Below are positions 128 to 34,174 of a DNA stretch of 64,000 nt, in pieces. Location of the stretch: positions 248,001 through 312,000 of the forward strand of contig NZ_NEVT01000007.1 in the NCBI RefSeq assembly GCF_002261345.1, in the 5' to 3' direction. The translations under genes were made by a program, and so were the position numbers. Source of the stretch: Bordetella genomosp. 2. Its GTDB lineage: Bacteria; Pseudomonadota; Gammaproteobacteria; Burkholderiales; Burkholderiaceae_B. The notes under the pieces were generated by a model, which did not search any database, was not told the origin of the DNA, and saw only the letters and a list, made by a program, of their open reading frames with translations. Within the stretch, counting starts at the first letter, position 1. Every line of letters begins with the position of its first letter.

Positions 128-1124
128 CCTGCCGCTGCTGTGGGCCATCATCATCCTGTTCGGCGTGATGATGTACGTGGTGATGGACGGCTTCGACCTC
201 GGTATCGGCCTGCTGTTTCCGTTCTTTCCGGACGCGGCCGACCGCGACGTCATGATGAACACCGTGGCGCCGGTCTGGGACGGCAACGAGACCTGGCTGG
301 TGCTGGGCGGCGCCGGCCTGCTCGCGGCCTTCCCGCTGGCATATTCGGTGGTGCTCAGCGCGCTGTACCTGCCGTTGACGCTGATGCTGGTGGGGCTGAT
401 CTTTCGCGGCGTCGCCTTCGAGTTCCGCTTCAAGGCGCGCCCCGGCCGCTGGCGCCTGTGGGACCAGGCCTTCGCGGGCGGCTCGCTTGTGGCCACGATG
501 TTCCAGGGCATCACCCTGGGCGCTTTCCTGAACGGACTGCCGGTCATCAATGACCGCTATGTCGGCGCCCCGTTCGCCTGGCTGGCGCCCTTTCCCGTCT
601 TCACCGGCCTGGGGCTGGCGATCGCCTACGCGCTGCTGGGCGCCACCTGGCTGGTGATGAAGACCGAGGGCGCCCTGCAGCGGCAACTGCGGCGCATGGC
701 CCGGCGCCTGGTCTGGGCGCTGCTCGCGGTCATCGCGGTCATCAGCGTCTGGACCCCGCTGGCGCACCCCGCCATCGCCAGCCGGTGGTTCAGCCTGCCC
801 AATCTGTTCTGGTTCGCGCCGGTGCCGCTGCTGGTGGCGGTGGCCGCCTGGCGGCTGCTGGCCGCGCTGCGCGCCGACGCCCAGACCGCGCCGTTCCTGC
901 TGACCCTCGCCCTGGTGTTCCTGGGCTACAGCGGGCTGGGCATCAGCCTGTGGCCGCATGTCACACCGCCCTCGATCACCATCTGGCAGGCGGCCGGCCC
1001 GCCGCAGAGCCTGGGCTTCGCCCTGGTCGGCGCGCTGCTCGTCATCCCGCTGGTGCTGACCTACACCGGCTGGGCCTACTGGGTGTTCCGCGGCAAGGTG
1101 CGGCATGGCGAGGGATACCACTGA
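117..1124 (+). CDS. cydB: Cytochrome bd-type quinol oxidase subunit II
   Basis: Integral membrane subunit of the bd/CIO quinol oxidase, which reduces O2 to water with quinol electrons in the inner membrane. The 335-aa product has the family hallmarks: an N-terminal segment followed by MDGFDLGIG (about residue 23), the WDGNETWL motif (about residues 54-61), FRGVAFEFR, and about eight or nine hydrophobic segments. The length is usual for CydB/CioB. The ATG lies inside the end of cydA, implying translational coupling, and a small DUF2474 gene follows after one base. Whether this is the cyanide-insensitive (Cio) type cannot be settled without the body of cydA. Confidence 0.95.
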   Translation: MGIDLPLLWAIIILFGVMMYVVMDGFDLGIGLLFPFFPDAADRDVMMNTVAPVWDGNETWLVLGGAGLLAAFPLAYSVVLSALYLPLTLMLVGLIFRGVAFEFRFKARPGRWRLWDQAFAGGSLVATMFQGITLGAFLNGLPVINDRYVGAPFAWLAPFPVFTGLGLAIAYALLGATWLVMKTEGALQRQLRRMARRLVWALLAVIAVISVWTPLAHPAIASRWFSLPNLFWFAPVPLLVAVAAWRLLAALRADAQTAPFLLTLALVFLGYSGLGISLWPHVTPPSITIWQAAGPPQSLGFALVGALLVIPLVLTYTGWAYWVFRGKVRHGEGYH

Positions 1125-1125
1125 T

Positions 1126-1257
1126 ATGAAACGCAACGCCCCGCTCTGGATCCGGCGGTTCGGATGGCTGGTCATCCTGTGGGCCGGCGGCGTCGCCGCG
1201 CTGTTCGGCGTGGCGCAACTGCTCAAGGCCATCATGCGCGGCAGCGGCCTGGCCTGA
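1126..1257 (+). CDS. Small DUF2474-type membrane protein of the bd oxidase operon
   Basis: A 43-aa ORF starting one base after the cydB stop. It reads MKRNAPLWIRRFGWLVIL and continues through a single hydrophobic helix (about residues 13-33) to a short basic tail ending SGLA. The W..R.GWLV.LW pattern and single helix match the DUF2474 family, whose members typically follow cydB/cioB. By analogy with CydX/CydS it may be a small structural or stability subunit of the oxidase; that role is inference. The TGA (1255-1257) ends the operon before the 74-bp gap to the next gene. Confidence 0.8.
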   Translation: MKRNAPLWIRRFGWLVILWAGGVAALFGVAQLLKAIMRGSGLA

Positions 1258-1331
1258 ACCAGCCAGCGGCCACATCGCCCGGCACGCTATCATCGCGAAA
1301 ACCCCCGCAGCGGCGGACCGCCGCCTCCTCC

Positions 1332-4300
1332 ATGCCCGATACGCCATCCAAACCCGTCAACCAGAAGAGCCTGCTGCGCAGCGACCTGCCATTCCCGGTG
1401 GTCGGCATCGGCGCGTCGGCCGGCGGCATCGAAGCGCTGAAGACCTTCTTCAAGCACATGCCGGCCGAGCCGGGCATGGCGTTCGTGGTGGTGCTGCACC
1501 TGTCGCCCCACCATGAAAGCATGCTCGACCGCATCCTGCAGTCGACCACTTCCATGCCGGTGCTGGCGGTCACGCGCAGCGTGCCGGTGCAGTGCAACCA
1601 TGTGTATGTCATCCCGCCGGGGGTCAGCCTGTCCATGAACGACGGCTACCTGCGGCTGACCCGCGCCGCGCGCCCGCACGGCCAGCATATCGCCATCGAC
1701 GTGTTTTTCCGCACCCTGGCCGATGTGCACCAGGCGCGCGCCGTCGGCATCGTGCTCACCGGCGGCGGCGCCGACGGCTCGATCGGCATCGCCCGCATCA
1801 AGGAACAGGGCGGCGTCACCTTCGCCCAGCAGCCCGAGGACGCCGCGCACGACACCATGCCGCGCAGCGCCATCGCCACCGGCATGGTCGACATCGTCCT
1901 GCCGGTGGCCGAGATCCCGGCCCGCCTGCTGGAGTTCGCCGCCAACCAGGCGCGCATCCACATTCCCGCCCCCATCGACCAGGAAGTCCACCCGCGCGCC
2001 GACGCGCCGGCCGACGAGACGCCGGCCGACCGCAACGCCCTGCACGACATCCTGGGCCTGCTGCGCGCCCGCACCGGGCACGACTTCCGGCATTACAAGC
2101 GGGCCACGGTGCTGCGCCGCATCGAGCGGCGCATGCAGGTCACCGGGGTGCCCGACATGACGGCCTATGCGGCCATGCTGCGCGAAACCGCCGACGAAAC
2201 GCCCAAGCTGCTGAGCGACATGCTGATCGGCGTGACGCAGTTCTTCCGCGACCGCGACGCCTTCCAGGCGCTCGAGCACCTGGTCGTGCCCGCCCTGTTC
2301 AACCGCGGGTCGCGCGGCGAACGCGCCGCCACCGTACGGGCCTGGGTAGCCGGCTGCTCCACCGGCGAAGAGGCCTACTCGCTGGCCATGCTGCTCAGCG
2401 ACGAGGCGGAGCGGCTGGCGGCCCCGACCAAGATCCAGGTGTTCGCCACCGATATCGACGCCCACGCCCTGGCCGCCGGCCGTACCGGGCTGTATCCGCA
2501 GGCCATCGAGACCGACGTCGCCGCCGCGCGGCTGCATACCTACTTCACCAAGGAAGACGCCAGCTACCGGGTCAAGAAAGAAATTCGCGAGAAAGTCCTG
2601 TTCGCGCCGCACAACATCCTGCACGATCCGCCTTTCTCCAAGCTCGACCTGGTCACCTGCCGCAATCTGCTCATCTACCTCGACCGCGAAGTGCAGGCCG
2701 ACGTGCTGCGCATGTTCCATTTCGCGCTCAACCCGGGCGGCTACCTGTTCCTGGGCAGCTCCGAATCGGCCGATGCCTGCGAGAACCTGTTCAAGGTCGT
2801 GGACAAGCGCAATTGCCTTTACCAGGCCCGGGACGCGGCCTCGCTACCGCGCGCCATCCGCATGCACGCGACCGCGCCGTTCGACAAGATTCCGCCGGCG
2901 CCGGTCGACGCGGCCGTCGGCCGGCACGGCAAGCCCTCGTTCGCCGAGCTGCACCGGCGCGCGCTGGAACAGTACGCGCCGCCCAGCGTCGTCGTCGATC
3001 TCGAAGGCAACATCGTCCACATGTCCGAGCGCGCCGGGCGCTACCTGCGCTACGTGGGCGGCGAGCCCTCGCGCAGCCTGGCCTCGCTGGTGCATCCCGA
3101 ACTGCGCATGGAGCTGCGCACCGCGCTGTTCCAGGCGCTGCATTCCCGCAAGAGCATCGAGGCGCGGCGCGTCGCGCTCAGCATGGGCGAGCGGCGCGTC
3201 TACGTGAACATCGTGGTGCGGCCATTCAGCGACGCGGAAACCGGCGGCGACTTCGTGCTGGTGATCTTCGACGAAGTCGAGGACGTGCTCGACGAGACCA
3301 GCGCGGTGCGCGGCCCGCACCCGGAGCAGAGCGTACTGACCCAGATCGAGGCGGAGCTGCGCCAGACCAAGGAACAGCTGCAGCTCACCATGGAGCAGTC
3401 CGAGACCTCGACCGAGGAACTGAAGGCCTCGAACGAAGAATTGCAGGCCATCAACGAAGAGCTGCGCTCGGCGACCGAAGAACTCGAAACCGGCAAGGAA
3501 GAACTGCAGTCGGTCAATGAAGAACTGATCACCGTCAATGCGGAACTGAAGTCCAAGGTCGAGGAAACCGCCAAGATCAACGACGACCTGCAGAACCTGA
3601 TCGCCTCCACCGACATCGCCGCCGTGTTCGTCGATCGCAGCATGCGGATCAAGTGGTTCACGCCGCGCGCGGCCGACATCTTCAGCGTCATCACCAGCGA
3701 CGCCGGCCGATCGCTGCTGGATATCACCCACCGCCTCGATTATGCCGACCTGGCGCGCGACGCCGCCGGGGTGTTCGAATCGCTGCGTCCCATCGAGCGC
3801 GAAGTGTGCAGCATCGACGGGCGCTGGTACCTGGCGCGGCTGTTGCCCTACCGCAGCTCGGAGCACCGCATCGACGGCGCGGTGCTGACCTTCATCGACA
3901 TCACCGACCGCCGCAAGGCCGAGGAGCGCATGCGCCTGGGCGAGGCGCACATGAAGCTGGTGGCCGAGAGCGCCAAGGACTTCGCCATCATGACGATCGG
4001 TCCCGACGGCACCATCGTGACCTGGAGCTACGGCGCCGAACTGATGTTCGGCTACACCGAAGCCGAGGCCATCGGCCAGTCGATCGCCATCATCTTCACG
4101 CAGGAAGATATCGAGGCGGGCGCCCCCGCGCAGGAAATGGAGCGCGCGCGCCACAACGGCTACGCGCCCGACGAACGCTGGCACCGCCGCAAGGACGGCA
4201 CGCGCATCTTCTGCACCGGCGGCGTCAACCCCATGGAAGACTCCACCTTCCGCGGCTACGCCAAGATCACGCGCGACGTCACCGAGCAGAAGCGGCGCGA

Positions 4301-31769: not shown

Positions 31770-32201
31770 TTATGCGGCGGGGGGCTGGTGCAGTTGCCAG
31801 GACACGCCGTATTTGTCCTGCACCCAGGCAAAGCGCGGGCTGAACGGGTAGGCGTCGAGCGGCATCAGCACGGTGCCGCCCTCGGAGAAGGCGGCATAGA
31901 GGCGGTCGACTTCGGCGGCCGATTCGCAGTCGACGAACAGGGAGATGGCGGGCGTGAAGCCGAAGGCATGCTTGGCGGGGCTGTCGATGCACATGAATTC
32001 GCGGCCGTTCAACTCGAAGCGCGCCTGCACGATCGAACCCTCGCGGCCGGGACCTTCCGGCCCGTAACGCTGGATGTGGCGCATGGCCGAGCCGGGGAAC
32101 AGCGACATGTACCAATTGACGGCCTCTTCGGCCTGGCCTTCGAACATCAGGAACGGGGTGACGGCGGGCAACGCGCCGGTCGGCGGGACGGTGGCTGGCA
32201 T
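31770..32201 (-). CDS. VOC-family protein (PhnB/3-demethylubiquinone methyltransferase-like)
   Basis: A 143-aa protein of the VOC superfamily subgroup annotated as 3-demethylubiquinone-9 3-methyltransferase. Typical strings are PFLMFEGQAEEAVNWYMSLF, FELNGREFMCIDSP, FTPAISLFVDCESAAEVDRLY, and PLDAYPFSPRFAWVQDKYGVSWQL. Members of this subgroup rarely have proven methyltransferase activity; a glyoxalase-like or binding role is equally possible. Its promoter faces the hairpin-repeat region. Confidence 0.9.
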   Translation of the reverse strand: MPATVPPTGALPAVTPFLMFEGQAEEAVNWYMSLFPGSAMRHIQRYGPEGPGREGSIVQARFELNGREFMCIDSPAKHAFGFTPAISLFVDCESAAEVDRLYAAFSEGGTVLMPLDAYPFSPRFAWVQDKYGVSWQLHQPPAA

Positions 32202-32383
32202 GACGGATCTCCAGGGTCGCGCCGCGCCTGTGCGCGGCGGTATCACGATACTCGATGCTTGTGTCGTGGGTGCGTAATTGGGGGTTTCAGTGGTGAGCTA
32301 TTGCGACGGGGGGTGACGAGGCTCTTGGTGGGGGGCGTGCGCCGCGCCTGCCGGTGCGGTTGAACGGCCCGGGTTCGTGGGCC

Positions 32384-32513
32384 GCCCGCGCCTGCCGGTG
32401 GGGCCTGGTCGGCCACGTCGCTCGGCTCGGGCGCGCCACCAGGCGCCCTCGGCCCCCTGCGGGGGCTGCCCTCGCTCCAACTGGCCGCCCAGGCCCCACC
32501 GGCAGGCGCGGGC
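32384..32513 (+). repeat. Conserved-core hairpin element, copy 1
   Basis: A 130-nt element: arms 32384-32415 and 32482-32513 are complementary at 31 of 32 positions and enclose a 66-nt core (32416-32481). The core is 65/66 identical to that of copy 2 in the opposite orientation. Only the innermost arm bases (GGCCA/TGGCC) are shared with copy 2; the outer arms (GCCCGCGCCTGCCGGTGGGG) are unrelated to those of copy 2. The core contains its own GC palindrome CCCCCTGCGGGGG. Confidence 0.9.
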
Positions 32514-32586
32514 TCACAGCATCTCGGGTCGAGGCACCCGAGGCCTCATGTCGGCATGTCAGTGCCAGGGCATGGTGTCTCGTGTT

Positions 32587-32650
32587 GGTGTCAGACACCC
32601 CATGCACGCCGTCTCGACACGCAAGACGGTGCACAGGGGTGTCTGACACC
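32587..32650. repeat. Central imperfect hairpin with GGTGTCAGACACC ends
   Basis: GGTGTCAGACACCCC (32587-32601) is repeated inverted as GGGGTGTCTGACACC (32636-32650). Between them TGCA and CCGTCT/AGACGG also pair, leaving the loop CGACACGCA, so about 25 base pairs form in all. The 13-bp end motif is itself a palindrome except for its central base. Confidence 0.8.
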
Positions 32651-32743
32651 TGCGTGCATCCAAACCACGGCGCCCTCACGTCGATGTCTGCCCCCCCATG
32701 CCCCACCCAGTGATTAGTGGACCGGCGCGTGCGGTTGGTGTGA

Positions 32744-32877
32744 GTCCAGGGCGGGGCTGGGGAGTGCGGGACGGCCAGTTGGAGCGAGGGCAGCCCCCGC
32801 AGGGGGCCGAGGGCGCCTGGGGGCGCGCCCGAGCCGAGCGACGTGGCCGGCCCGCACTCCCCAGCCCCGCCCTGGAC
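32744..32877 (-). repeat. Conserved-core hairpin element, copy 2 (inverted)
   Basis: A 134-nt element: arms 32744-32777 and 32844-32877 are complementary at 33 of 34 positions and enclose a 66-nt core (32778-32843), the reverse complement of the copy 1 core with one difference. The outer arm sequence (GTCCAGGGCGGGGCTGGGGA) is unrelated to copy 1. It ends 31 bp from the P450 stop codon. Confidence 0.9.
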
Positions 32878-32908
32878 GCCCTACGAAGCGAACCCACCCC
32901 GCCAAGAC

Positions 32909-34174
32909 CTACAACACCGCCGCCCGCACCACCAACTCACTCCGCGGCAACGCCGGCAACCGCGCATAATCCAGCGCCATATCCCCCCCGGCAGTCACGC
33001 ATTGCGTACGCCCCAGCAGGAAATCCAGCGACACCTTCATGATGGCCAGCGCAGCGTCCTCGCCGGGGCAGCGATGCCCGCGCGCCGCATCCGCCCCGCC
33101 CTGCGGAATGAACTCGAAAGCCGTCGGCATGCGCGCGCGGAAGCGGCCCGGGTCGAACCGGTCGGGGTCGTTCCAGGCGCGCGGGTCATGGTTGGTGCCG
33201 TACAGGTCCAGCACCGCGCGCCGCCCCTTCGGAAACCGGTAGCCGTTCCATTCGAAATCGCGCACCGTGGCCATCACCGCCGGAAAAAACGGGTAATAGC
33301 GGCGCACCTCGTTCAGGAAATCCATCCCCACGCCGCCCGGCTCATCGCGCCGCGAGCGCAGGACTTCCGGATGCGCCTGCGCCGCATGCAGGCAGAACAC
33401 GATATACACCGACACCGCCACCACCGGCCGCAGCACATTCAACAACTCCGTGGCGGCCAGCCGCGCGTCCAGCGGCCTGCCCACCACATCACGGAACGCC
33501 GCCACCTGCTGCAACGGAGAATCGCCGGCGAGCGCCCCGCCCTGGCGCCGCGCCCGCTCGACCTGGCCCGCCAGCCATGCCTGCAGGCGCAGGCGCGACC
33601 AGCGCGCCCGTCCATGCGCCAGCAGCCCGCGCGCCGCGTCGTCGAACAGCGCCACCAACTGCCGGGTGCGCGCCGGCGCCTCGGCCTCCGGCAGGGACAC
33701 CCCCGCCCACTCGCACACCGCGCGCGCCAGGACATCCTGCGCCGCGCCATAGAGCGCCACGCCGTCGCGCGGCCAGCGCGCCAGGGCCGTCTCCCAGTGG
33801 CGCCCGACATGGCCCGCCAGCGCCGCCACCGCCGGAGGGGCCAGGGTGTCCAGGAACAGCGCCTTGCGGCGCCAATGGTCCGGCCCATCCAGCGACTGCA
33901 CCGCCCGCTTGCCGAACAGCGTGGCCTGCAGGGGCTCCGGCGCCGCGCCGCGGCGCTGGAAGCGCTCGCCGTCATAGAAGAGTTGCGCCGCGCGCGGCCC
34001 CGACAGGAAGATCGTCGGCGCGAGCAGCAGCCGCGCCTGGAACACGTCCGTATTCAGGGCGCGGCACTGGCCGCCGATGTACCGGTAGGGGTCCGAAAAA
34101 AATTCCCGCGTGCTGTCGAAAGCGCGCGGCCGCGGCATGGAAGTGGCGGACGGGGAACGATGGATGGCGGGCAT
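32909..34174 (-). CDS. Cytochrome P450, CYP152-type peroxygenase
   Basis: A 421-aa P450. The haem-binding loop is FIPQGGADAARGHRCPGED with axial Cys369, the style of CYP152 fatty-acid peroxygenases (FIPQGG..GHRCPGE). The I-helix segment reads ELLNVLRPVVAVSVYI, with Arg-Pro in place of the usual acid-alcohol pair; that Arg anchors the fatty-acid carboxylate in this family. EVRRYYPFFPAV is the ExxR region. CYP152 enzymes use H2O2 directly to hydroxylate or decarboxylate fatty acids and need no redox partner; none is encoded nearby. Substrate is inferred. Confidence 0.9.
   Translation of the reverse strand: MPAIHRSPSATSMPRPRAFDSTREFFSDPYRYIGGQCRALNTDVFQARLLLAPTIFLSGPRAAQLFYDGERFQRRGAAPEPLQATLFGKRAVQSLDGPDHWRRKALFLDTLAPPAVAALAGHVGRHWETALARWPRDGVALYGAAQDVLARAVCEWAGVSLPEAEAPARTRQLVALFDDAARGLLAHGRARWSRLRLQAWLAGQVERARRQGGALAGDSPLQQVAAFRDVVGRPLDARLAATELLNVLRPVVAVSVYIVFCLHAAQAHPEVLRSRRDEPGGVGMDFLNEVRRYYPFFPAVMATVRDFEWNGYRFPKGRRAVLDLYGTNHDPRAWNDPDRFDPGRFRARMPTAFEFIPQGGADAARGHRCPGEDAALAIMKVSLDFLLGRTQCVTAGGDMALDYARLPALPRSELVVRAAVL

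Follow-up and report, generated by a model that had tools for sequence, protein, structure and literature searches.

Structured repeats of bacterial genomes

Bacterial MITEs such as ERIC are small, intergenic, non-coding and palindromic elements that carry short terminal inverted motifs and have no gene of their own, and attC sites are recognised as a folded single strand whose stem sequence is largely free. REP sequences and BIMEs comprise intergenic hairpins, often arranged as dimers of inverse orientation and in many families displaying two stem types, which lie downstream of genes and are recognised strand-specifically as a folded single strand (PMC3733652, PMC8266576); the BIME is there defined as two strand-specific hairpins in inverse orientation, separated by a variable linker (PMC8266576). 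In Bordetella, B. bronchiseptica and B. pertussis carry the Bor and Bor-1 sequences, which are described as repeated, intergenic and structured, the Bor-1 model spanning 117 nt with 196 hits (92 full) in B. bronchiseptica (PMC1590033, PMC2267715). BRE, a Beta-proteobacterial repeat element of about 90 bp, is described as lying in most cases between genes and as connected with the locus of a small RNA; where several units occur together, they follow one another in tandem, separated by few or no bases (PMC3110155).

The locus described here displays two long hairpins, A and B, facing each other across a spacer. Like REP/BIME, these hairpins are intergenic, adopt an inverse orientation (51 of 54 neighbouring pairs are convergent) and favour gene 3' ends; unlike them, they span 130-134 nt in the window against 20-50 nt, and comprise a branched core on a stem that measures about 30-35 bp where a REP stem has 5-13 bp. 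In addition, several hosts give no Y1_Tnp match, among them the ones richest in copies. The REP tag, read by eye on the strand running outward from the spacer, is approximately TGYGAG on the 5' side and GTCTCAAGAAC on the 3' side in the clearest copies, with no GTAG, and CGTC is readable across the stem foot and not as an unpaired tag. In anatomy and behaviour the pair works like an oversized BIME; given its size, the lack of a general RAYT link and an unclear tag, it is not classed as one here.

Compared to ERIC-type MITEs, the pair is likewise small, intergenic, non-coding, palindromic, bounded by terminal inverted motifs and gene-less, and differs in its two inverted hairpin modules, with neither a target duplication nor a related IS found. 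The proposed recognition of a folded single strand with a free stem sequence resembles that of attC sites, whereas the conserved part of the A/B hairpins is the core in the middle and not the ends. As for targets of IS110/IS1111 elements, one core of the family is occupied by an IS110-family element. The likeness to Bor/Bor-1 (repeated, intergenic, structured) and the difference from BRE (face-to-face, spaced pairs in place of tandem units) are drawn from the published descriptions; on those descriptions, Bor, Bor-1 and BRE are the nearest named Bordetella repeats met (PMC1590033, PMC2267715, PMC3110155). No title or abstract among the open-literature matches listed describes the A/B hairpin family, and a paper on intrastrand-triplex repeats makes no mention of Bordetella (PMC4666352).

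Architecture of the hairpin pair

The window, that is, the whole 64,000-nt stretch of Bordetella genomosp. 2 DNA analysed, contains the pair in one 707-nt intergenic region. Both flanking genes are on the minus strand: (i) a PF06983 gene (3-demethylubiquinone-9 3-methyltransferase; 31770-32201), with its 5' end towards hairpin A, and (ii) a cytochrome P450 gene (Pfam p450; 32909-34138), with 31 nt between its 3' end and hairpin B. Hairpin A (copy 1; 32384-32513, minus strand) comprises a 32-bp stem with arms at 32384-32415 and 32482-32513, 97% complementary, enclosing a 66-nt core (32416-32481, minus strand). Hairpin B (copy 2; 32744-32877, plus strand) comprises a 34-bp stem with arms at 32744-32777 and 32844-32877, also 97% complementary, enclosing an inverted 66-nt core (32778-32843, plus strand) that is 65/66 identical to that of A. 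The core of A is itself branched, with a small hairpin (arms 32429-32434/32443-32448) and a second one (arms 32452-32457/32461-32466) closed by a triloop at 32458-32460 that reads GCA on the minus strand. Both window copies fold as DNA with z-scores of -9.61 and -9.38, and none of 200 dinucleotide shuffles folds equally well.

The spacer (32514-32743) contains a REP pair, or REPIN (32587-32650), with arms of the GGTGTCAGACACC type at 32587-32601 and 32636-32650. Outside hairpin A lies the left terminal motif (32372-32383, plus strand), which reads GGTTCGTGGGCC against the common family form GTTCTTGAGACG; it was assigned by eye and does not match the pattern GTTCTTGAGRCGNC. The right terminal motif, outside hairpin B (32878-32889, plus strand; reverse complement GCTTCGTAGGGC), was likewise assigned by eye and repeats the left motif imperfectly in inverted orientation. 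Rfam returns no match at gathering score in the whole window, the only weaker one being MIR1437, far below gathering score, with E-values of 0.21 and 0.4.

The initial annotation of this DNA had pointed to two hairpins built on long inverted repeats, the second inverted, around a near-identical 66-nt core, in a structured repeat that lacks a protein gene, and all of this holds for the window copy. Its description of the two stems as unrelated needs correction: they are not one-off sequences, as each belongs to a class with many copies, and in the window the six innermost pairs are common to both. It had further read the contrast between the two stems as covariation around a conserved core. Covariation is indeed found within each class, but the contrast between A and B is a genus-wide split into two classes and no evidence of covariation. 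The earlier interpretation is thus partly supported.

Copies, stem classes and host range

The window's own genome (5.02 Mb) contains at least 43 matches to copy 1, of which 17 show at least 88% identity over at least 118 of 130 nt; the remaining ones are core-only matches (B-type and others), partial matches, or matches of the palindrome on the opposite strand. With the core and inner stem as query, matches occur in all nine genomes of the genus, the own genome having 34 and G007 a single one. Of 268 genomes of the family, 17 contain matches to a covariance model based on 30 diverse copies, namely (i) all nine of the window's genus, (ii) four of a second genus, (iii) two of a third, and (iv) G014 and G018, the matching groups including the B. 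ansorpii group and a few other Alcaligenaceae; the other 251 genomes yield no match to the model at 1e-4 under stricter filters. The richest hosts are G041 with 43, G042 with 26 and G043 with at least 16 matches, per-genome numbers being lower bounds, with limited candidates scored per genome; the match coordinates for these three are those of G122, G123 and G133 (listed as 100% complete).

A pattern scan of species genomes returned 86 stretches, and the 80 listed belong to Bordetella (ansorpii, genomosp. 13, petrii, BOR01 and genomosp. 7), Paracandidimonas soli and Mesopusillimonas faecipullorum. Achromobacter, which had been suggested as a search range, is absent from these listed records, and the range found is that of the 17 genomes above. 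Among the stretches listed (80 of 86), none comes from B. pertussis or B. bronchiseptica, which argues weakly against identity with Bor-1. The plasmid and phage collections gave a single short match each, neither convincing.

The fetched loci comprise 199 distinct copies, of which 190 display a stem. Copies were located through the core, so that the stems represent an independent test and coreless remnants are missed; orthologues from G041 and G042 are kept in the 199 copies as in the 54 pairs, 110 groups and 31 spacers discussed below. Flanks that are non-complementary, or identical between copies, would have spoken against the initial reading, and neither is the pattern seen across these copies. 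Stems in the family measure mostly about 30-35 bp and fall into two classes, assigned by foot letters only, A with a foot that is usually GCC and B with a foot that is usually GTC, both present in the own genome and in its relatives.

Pair order and terminal motifs

Neighbouring hairpins separated by under 900 nt form 54 pairs, of which 51 are face-to-face, three same-sense and none facing away, and 94 hairpins are solo within the fetched stretch. By foot letters, the convergent pairs comprise 36 A+B, six B+B and nine with one unclear foot, and their cores are separated by 137-727 nt.

The terminal motif, GTTCTTGAGACG in its clearest form, lies outside the hairpins and is, by eye, inverted at both ends in the clearest copies. 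MITE-type terminal inverted repeats are present in the form of imperfect GTTCTTGAG-type repeats of about 8-12 bp outside both hairpins, as judged by eye. The pattern GTTCTTGAGRCGNC occurs at 13 sites of the own genome against none for a reversed-pattern control, with a weaker signal at B ends. Ten of these sites are at full A hairpins, one lies close to the end of a contig, at a partial match, and at the other two (C1:154937 and C6:423205) the A hairpin has collapsed to the foot or little more with an intact B alongside. A search away from hairpins gave eight rows for the terminal motif, representing only four distinct places, two of which are the collapsed A hairpins. Because the motif marks A ends, even collapsed ones, the unit comprises an end motif, A, the spacer, B and a second end motif. 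A cassette-like arrangement occurs in the orthologous loci L192 (3570-4415) and L270, where a convergent A and B enclose a small gene of the glyoxalase superfamily.

Placement relative to genes

The elements form 110 groups, only one of which overlaps a predicted gene. Their flanking predicted genes are convergent in 40 cases, tandem in 60 and divergent in nine, with no flanking gene in one, compared to 24 convergent, 116 tandem and 56 divergent among 196 intergenic regions from the same loci that measure 100 nt or more and lack an element, gene calls in both sets coming from a simple codon-bias caller. Elements are therefore enriched between convergent genes and depleted between divergent ones, and 140 of 218 nearest gene ends are 3' ends.

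Their position between convergent genes and the high stability of the hairpins would suit bidirectional intrinsic terminators. Such terminators are, however, unlike 130-nt branched hairpins with a conserved core; a scan of 32202-32908 for a stem followed by a T-run (loops of 3-8, window copy only) found no terminator-like site, and 60 of 109 sites are tandem, which makes this reading very improbable. The intrinsic terminator was accordingly set aside as a candidate for the window copy.

Covariation of the stems and conservation of the core

Gapless alignments were prepared for 21 copies of class B, taken from 24 same-length candidates, and for 15 of class A, taken from 22 and containing window copy 1. 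Paired cells amount to 98.0% in class B and 97.9% in class A, percentages inflated by the preselection of candidates for complementarity at no fewer than the arm length minus five positions. In class B, 22 of 53 pairs show two-sided changes, with a covariation score of 0.241 against a shuffle mean of 0.079, and in class A the corresponding values are 21 of 48 pairs and 0.257 against 0.077. None of 500 shuffles reaches the observed score in either class, the p-values overstating significance given that the hairpin copies share ancestry; with the partners slid, the score is at most 0.050 (class B) and 0.063 (class A).

Two B. ansorpii genomes capture the process at close range. With the stem defined on the G041 sequence, 16 of its 43 copies have an orthologue under the cut-offs used, and of the 542 stem pairs in these 16 hairpins, 506 are unchanged, 19 carry one-sided changes (14 breaking and five re-pairing) and 17 carry double changes, against about 1.3 doubles expected with independent arms. 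All but one of the double changes restore Watson-Crick pairing, comprising 12 double transitions and four double transversions. The core diverges about three times less than the flanks (29/1041 versus 299/3265 positions). By eye, the core displays tandem G.A motifs, in which GAGCGA faces GAGCGA or, in some copies, GAGGGA faces GACCGA; one middle pair of the motif fails in 7 of 15 class-A rows (columns 40/93). About two hundred copies thus provide an unusually clean natural data set for the evolution of long hairpins, whose stems change in paired steps that close genomes catch.

The double changes are clustered, with three adjacent ones in L337 and four within 11 nt in L347, and template switching therefore probably helps to keep the arms matched; PMC8794818 argues that this process can maintain stems. 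Taken alone, the same process would account for a functionless repeat, a dead MITE or REP-like sequence whose arms match only through template-switch repair of imperfect palindromes, and the deletions through hairpin centres described below are also as expected of long palindromes. Correction of the arms predicts neither the slow core, nor the strand-dependent mismatch types seen in both classes, nor a triloop held to GNA; template switching is for these reasons insufficient as an explanation, and a dead repeat is improbable.

Strand asymmetry of the hairpins

Mismatches in the stems are unequal between the strands. On the core strand, class A displays 40 A.C against nine G.T in unique contexts and class B 60 against six, other mismatch types being not rare (41 and 34 unique contexts, respectively). 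Symmetric DNA pairing should yield equal numbers of both; an A.C on the core strand corresponds to a G.T (G-U) on the complementary, outward strand, which runs away from the spacer, so that over both classes 100 contexts place the G-T/G-U on the outward strand and 15 on the opposite one. The ratio of A.C to G.T is 31:8 in the petrii group, 56:3 in the ansorpii group, 6:1 in the own genome and 5:1 in G002; the asymmetry is absent from the four copies of other genera (A.C 1, G.T 2). The outward strand also folds better than its complement in 176 of 185 copies with DNA energies and in 160 of 185 with RNA energies, and of 190 copies, 176 show C(GNA)G on that strand as the triloop of one core hairpin (GCA 120, GTA 40, GAA 15, GGA 1). 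Mismatch and triloop counts omit nine of the 199 copies with a stem score below 18, and the folding comparison used 185 of the 199. For the window, the strand predicted to fold is the minus strand for hairpin A and the plus strand for hairpin B, both reading away from the spacer.

The tolerance of G-T/G-U on one strand in both classes, together with the C(GNA)G triloop, indicates that one folded strand seems to be conserved, as ssDNA or RNA. The stems, which change in sequence and nevertheless remain paired, likewise suggest that the folded single strand is what matters for these hairpins; the asymmetry also converts into a testable prediction of the strand that folds. Deamination of one exposed strand was considered as a source of the A.C excess. 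It predicts a T/G-rich outward strand nearby, which is not observed: the 15 nt outside 190 stems are A/C-rich on that strand (A 1014, C 901, G 632, T 303), the spacer side being even, and strand-specific deamination is hence unlikely.

If the conserved molecule is an RNA, the hairpins could act on 3' ends, on stability or on processing, possibly as an RNase III substrate, transcribed outward from the spacer or reached by read-through from a neighbouring gene with the relevant hairpin met second. Wobble tolerance and better outward folding fit RNA as well as ssDNA, and the enrichment at gene 3' ends adds to this reading, as does the excess of GC/UA over CG/AU pairs in the stems (2806:2087 and 720:468), an asymmetry that PMC8794818 reports for RNA stems. 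On the other side, a simple consensus scan of the window copy found no sigma-70-like promoter in 32202-32908, where the terminator-like site is likewise missing, and a single read-through transcript would present the two hairpins in opposite senses, so that an extra assumption is needed for the same asymmetry in both. GNA loops are, moreover, very stable minihairpins in DNA (Yoshizawa 1997, as cited in PMC6479982). An RNA is thus possible, if on the doubtful side. Since paired hairpins point outward on opposite strands, no promoter was seen in the window and the loop is of the GNA type, ssDNA is favoured over RNA, although the data are not decisive.

The REP pair in the spacer and the Y1 transposase

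The 15-nt inverted repeat in the spacer of the window is a REP pair and belongs to a repeat family separate from that of the hairpins. Its sequence GGTGTCAGACACC occurs at 354 exact sites in the own genome (175 + 179; control 0), clustering around the only Y1_Tnp (RAYT-like) match of that genome. REP sequences are present in 10 of 11 A-B spacers of the own genome and in both spacers of G001. A further REP pair locus is L278, around position 92268 of G000:C8. The presence of REPINs inside the hairpin family in some genomes represents a link between two repeat systems.

These observations, and the single Y1_Tnp gene ringed by REPs, would be explained if A, the REPIN and B moved as one unit through the Y1 transposase of the REP/RAYT system. 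Elsewhere the components part company: REP is found in none of the 31 A-B spacers of G041-G043 and in none of the seven in G002, G003, G005 and G006, although G003, G005 and G006 do carry a Y1_Tnp match; the G041 and G042 loci contain no REP in about 372 kb of overlapping stretches, and the G043 loci contain one. Y1_Tnp (PF01797) is unmatched in nine of the 14 genomes searched (G041, G042, G043, G002, G004, G007, G014, G018 and G129), no A/B hairpin occurs at any of six Y1 loci, and spacers are mostly dissimilar beyond the REP. A composite A-REPIN-B unit is therefore highly unlikely. In G004, REPs occur in the loci though Y1_Tnp is unmatched, so that the lack of a match need not mean that the system itself is lacking. 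Given the REP-less spacers and the lack of a Y1_Tnp match in G041-G043, the hairpin pairs are independent of the REP system of the own genome. RAYT was also discarded as a general mobiliser, the richest hosts G041-G043 having no Y1_Tnp match and the Y1 loci no hairpin.

Losses, insertions and mobility

Comparison of 29 G041 stretches with the fetched G042 sequence showed matches on both flanks for 17, on one flank for two and on neither for 10, eight of the last being then sought in G042 and G043. With 17 of 29 matching on both flanks, present mobility is not evident. The readable differences are losses, in which a deletion has removed the middle of the hairpin or affected one of its arms (L327/L376, L237/L373, L333/L388, L343/L383, L361/L381 and L366/L379); in L365/L371 one hairpin is absent, a case in which gain is indistinguishable from loss. 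Hairpins collapsed to the foot or deprived of their core are observed in L030 (G000:C1 154653-154950), L023 and L237/L373, a fate to be expected for long palindromes.

Comparisons among B. ansorpii and genomosp. 13 revealed no clean empty site or target duplication, showing deletions through hairpins or diverged intergenic DNA; in L339, L357 and L358, which appear empty or shorter in a relative, the intergenic DNA has diverged and a target duplication is not readable. As for an autonomous element, no ORF recurs at more than three other loci beside the 94 solo hairpins in the fetched stretches, many of which have less than 400 nt of flank, and the ORFs shared beside solo hairpins we take to be orthologous genes.

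Two loci carry additional DNA. In L206 of G042 (2057-3442), a 1386-bp IS110-family element is located inside the core of a B hairpin, as seen against L335, and the guide RNA of that element might target the hairpin core. In L382 of G043 (500-3020), about 2.4 kb with long open frames replaces the element locus of L361.

A model for the paired hairpins

The reading we prefer, tentatively, is a non-autonomous repeat resembling an oversized BIME, whose outward strand would be recognised folded as ssDNA by an enzyme acting in trans. The pair would be one copy of an intergenic unit in which inverse A and B hairpins are separated by a variable spacer and bounded by terminal motifs, and the recognised form may be the folded outward strand, by analogy with REP hairpins and the REP transposase. 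No mobilising enzyme was found, and the case for an ssDNA substrate comes from the indirect evidence of the strands. The core would be the part recognised, and the outer stem would need only to pair, and may drift for that reason. Joint correction of both arms would then reflect selection, probably aided by template switching in replication. The elements may have spread in the past, may now be largely inherited in place, and may persist downstream of genes, where they would be least harmful; the REP pair in the window spacer would be an insertion of a different family.

A broader claim is rather doubtful, namely that the family represents a design outside the definitions of REP, MITE and attC, with a fixed, branched core rich in G.A motifs set on a long stem of free sequence in which pairing is enforced, typically arranged as an inverted A/B heteropair and read on one folded strand by a putative dedicated enzyme or host protein. 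If an enzyme does read the fold, Bordetella-type bacteria would possess a new system for handling single-strand DNA (or RNA). Near a member of the family in G002, L186 (32-183) displays another long palindrome, with 42-nt arms and a 68-nt loop. Its core is not that of the A/B hairpins, and it may belong to a second family built in the same way.
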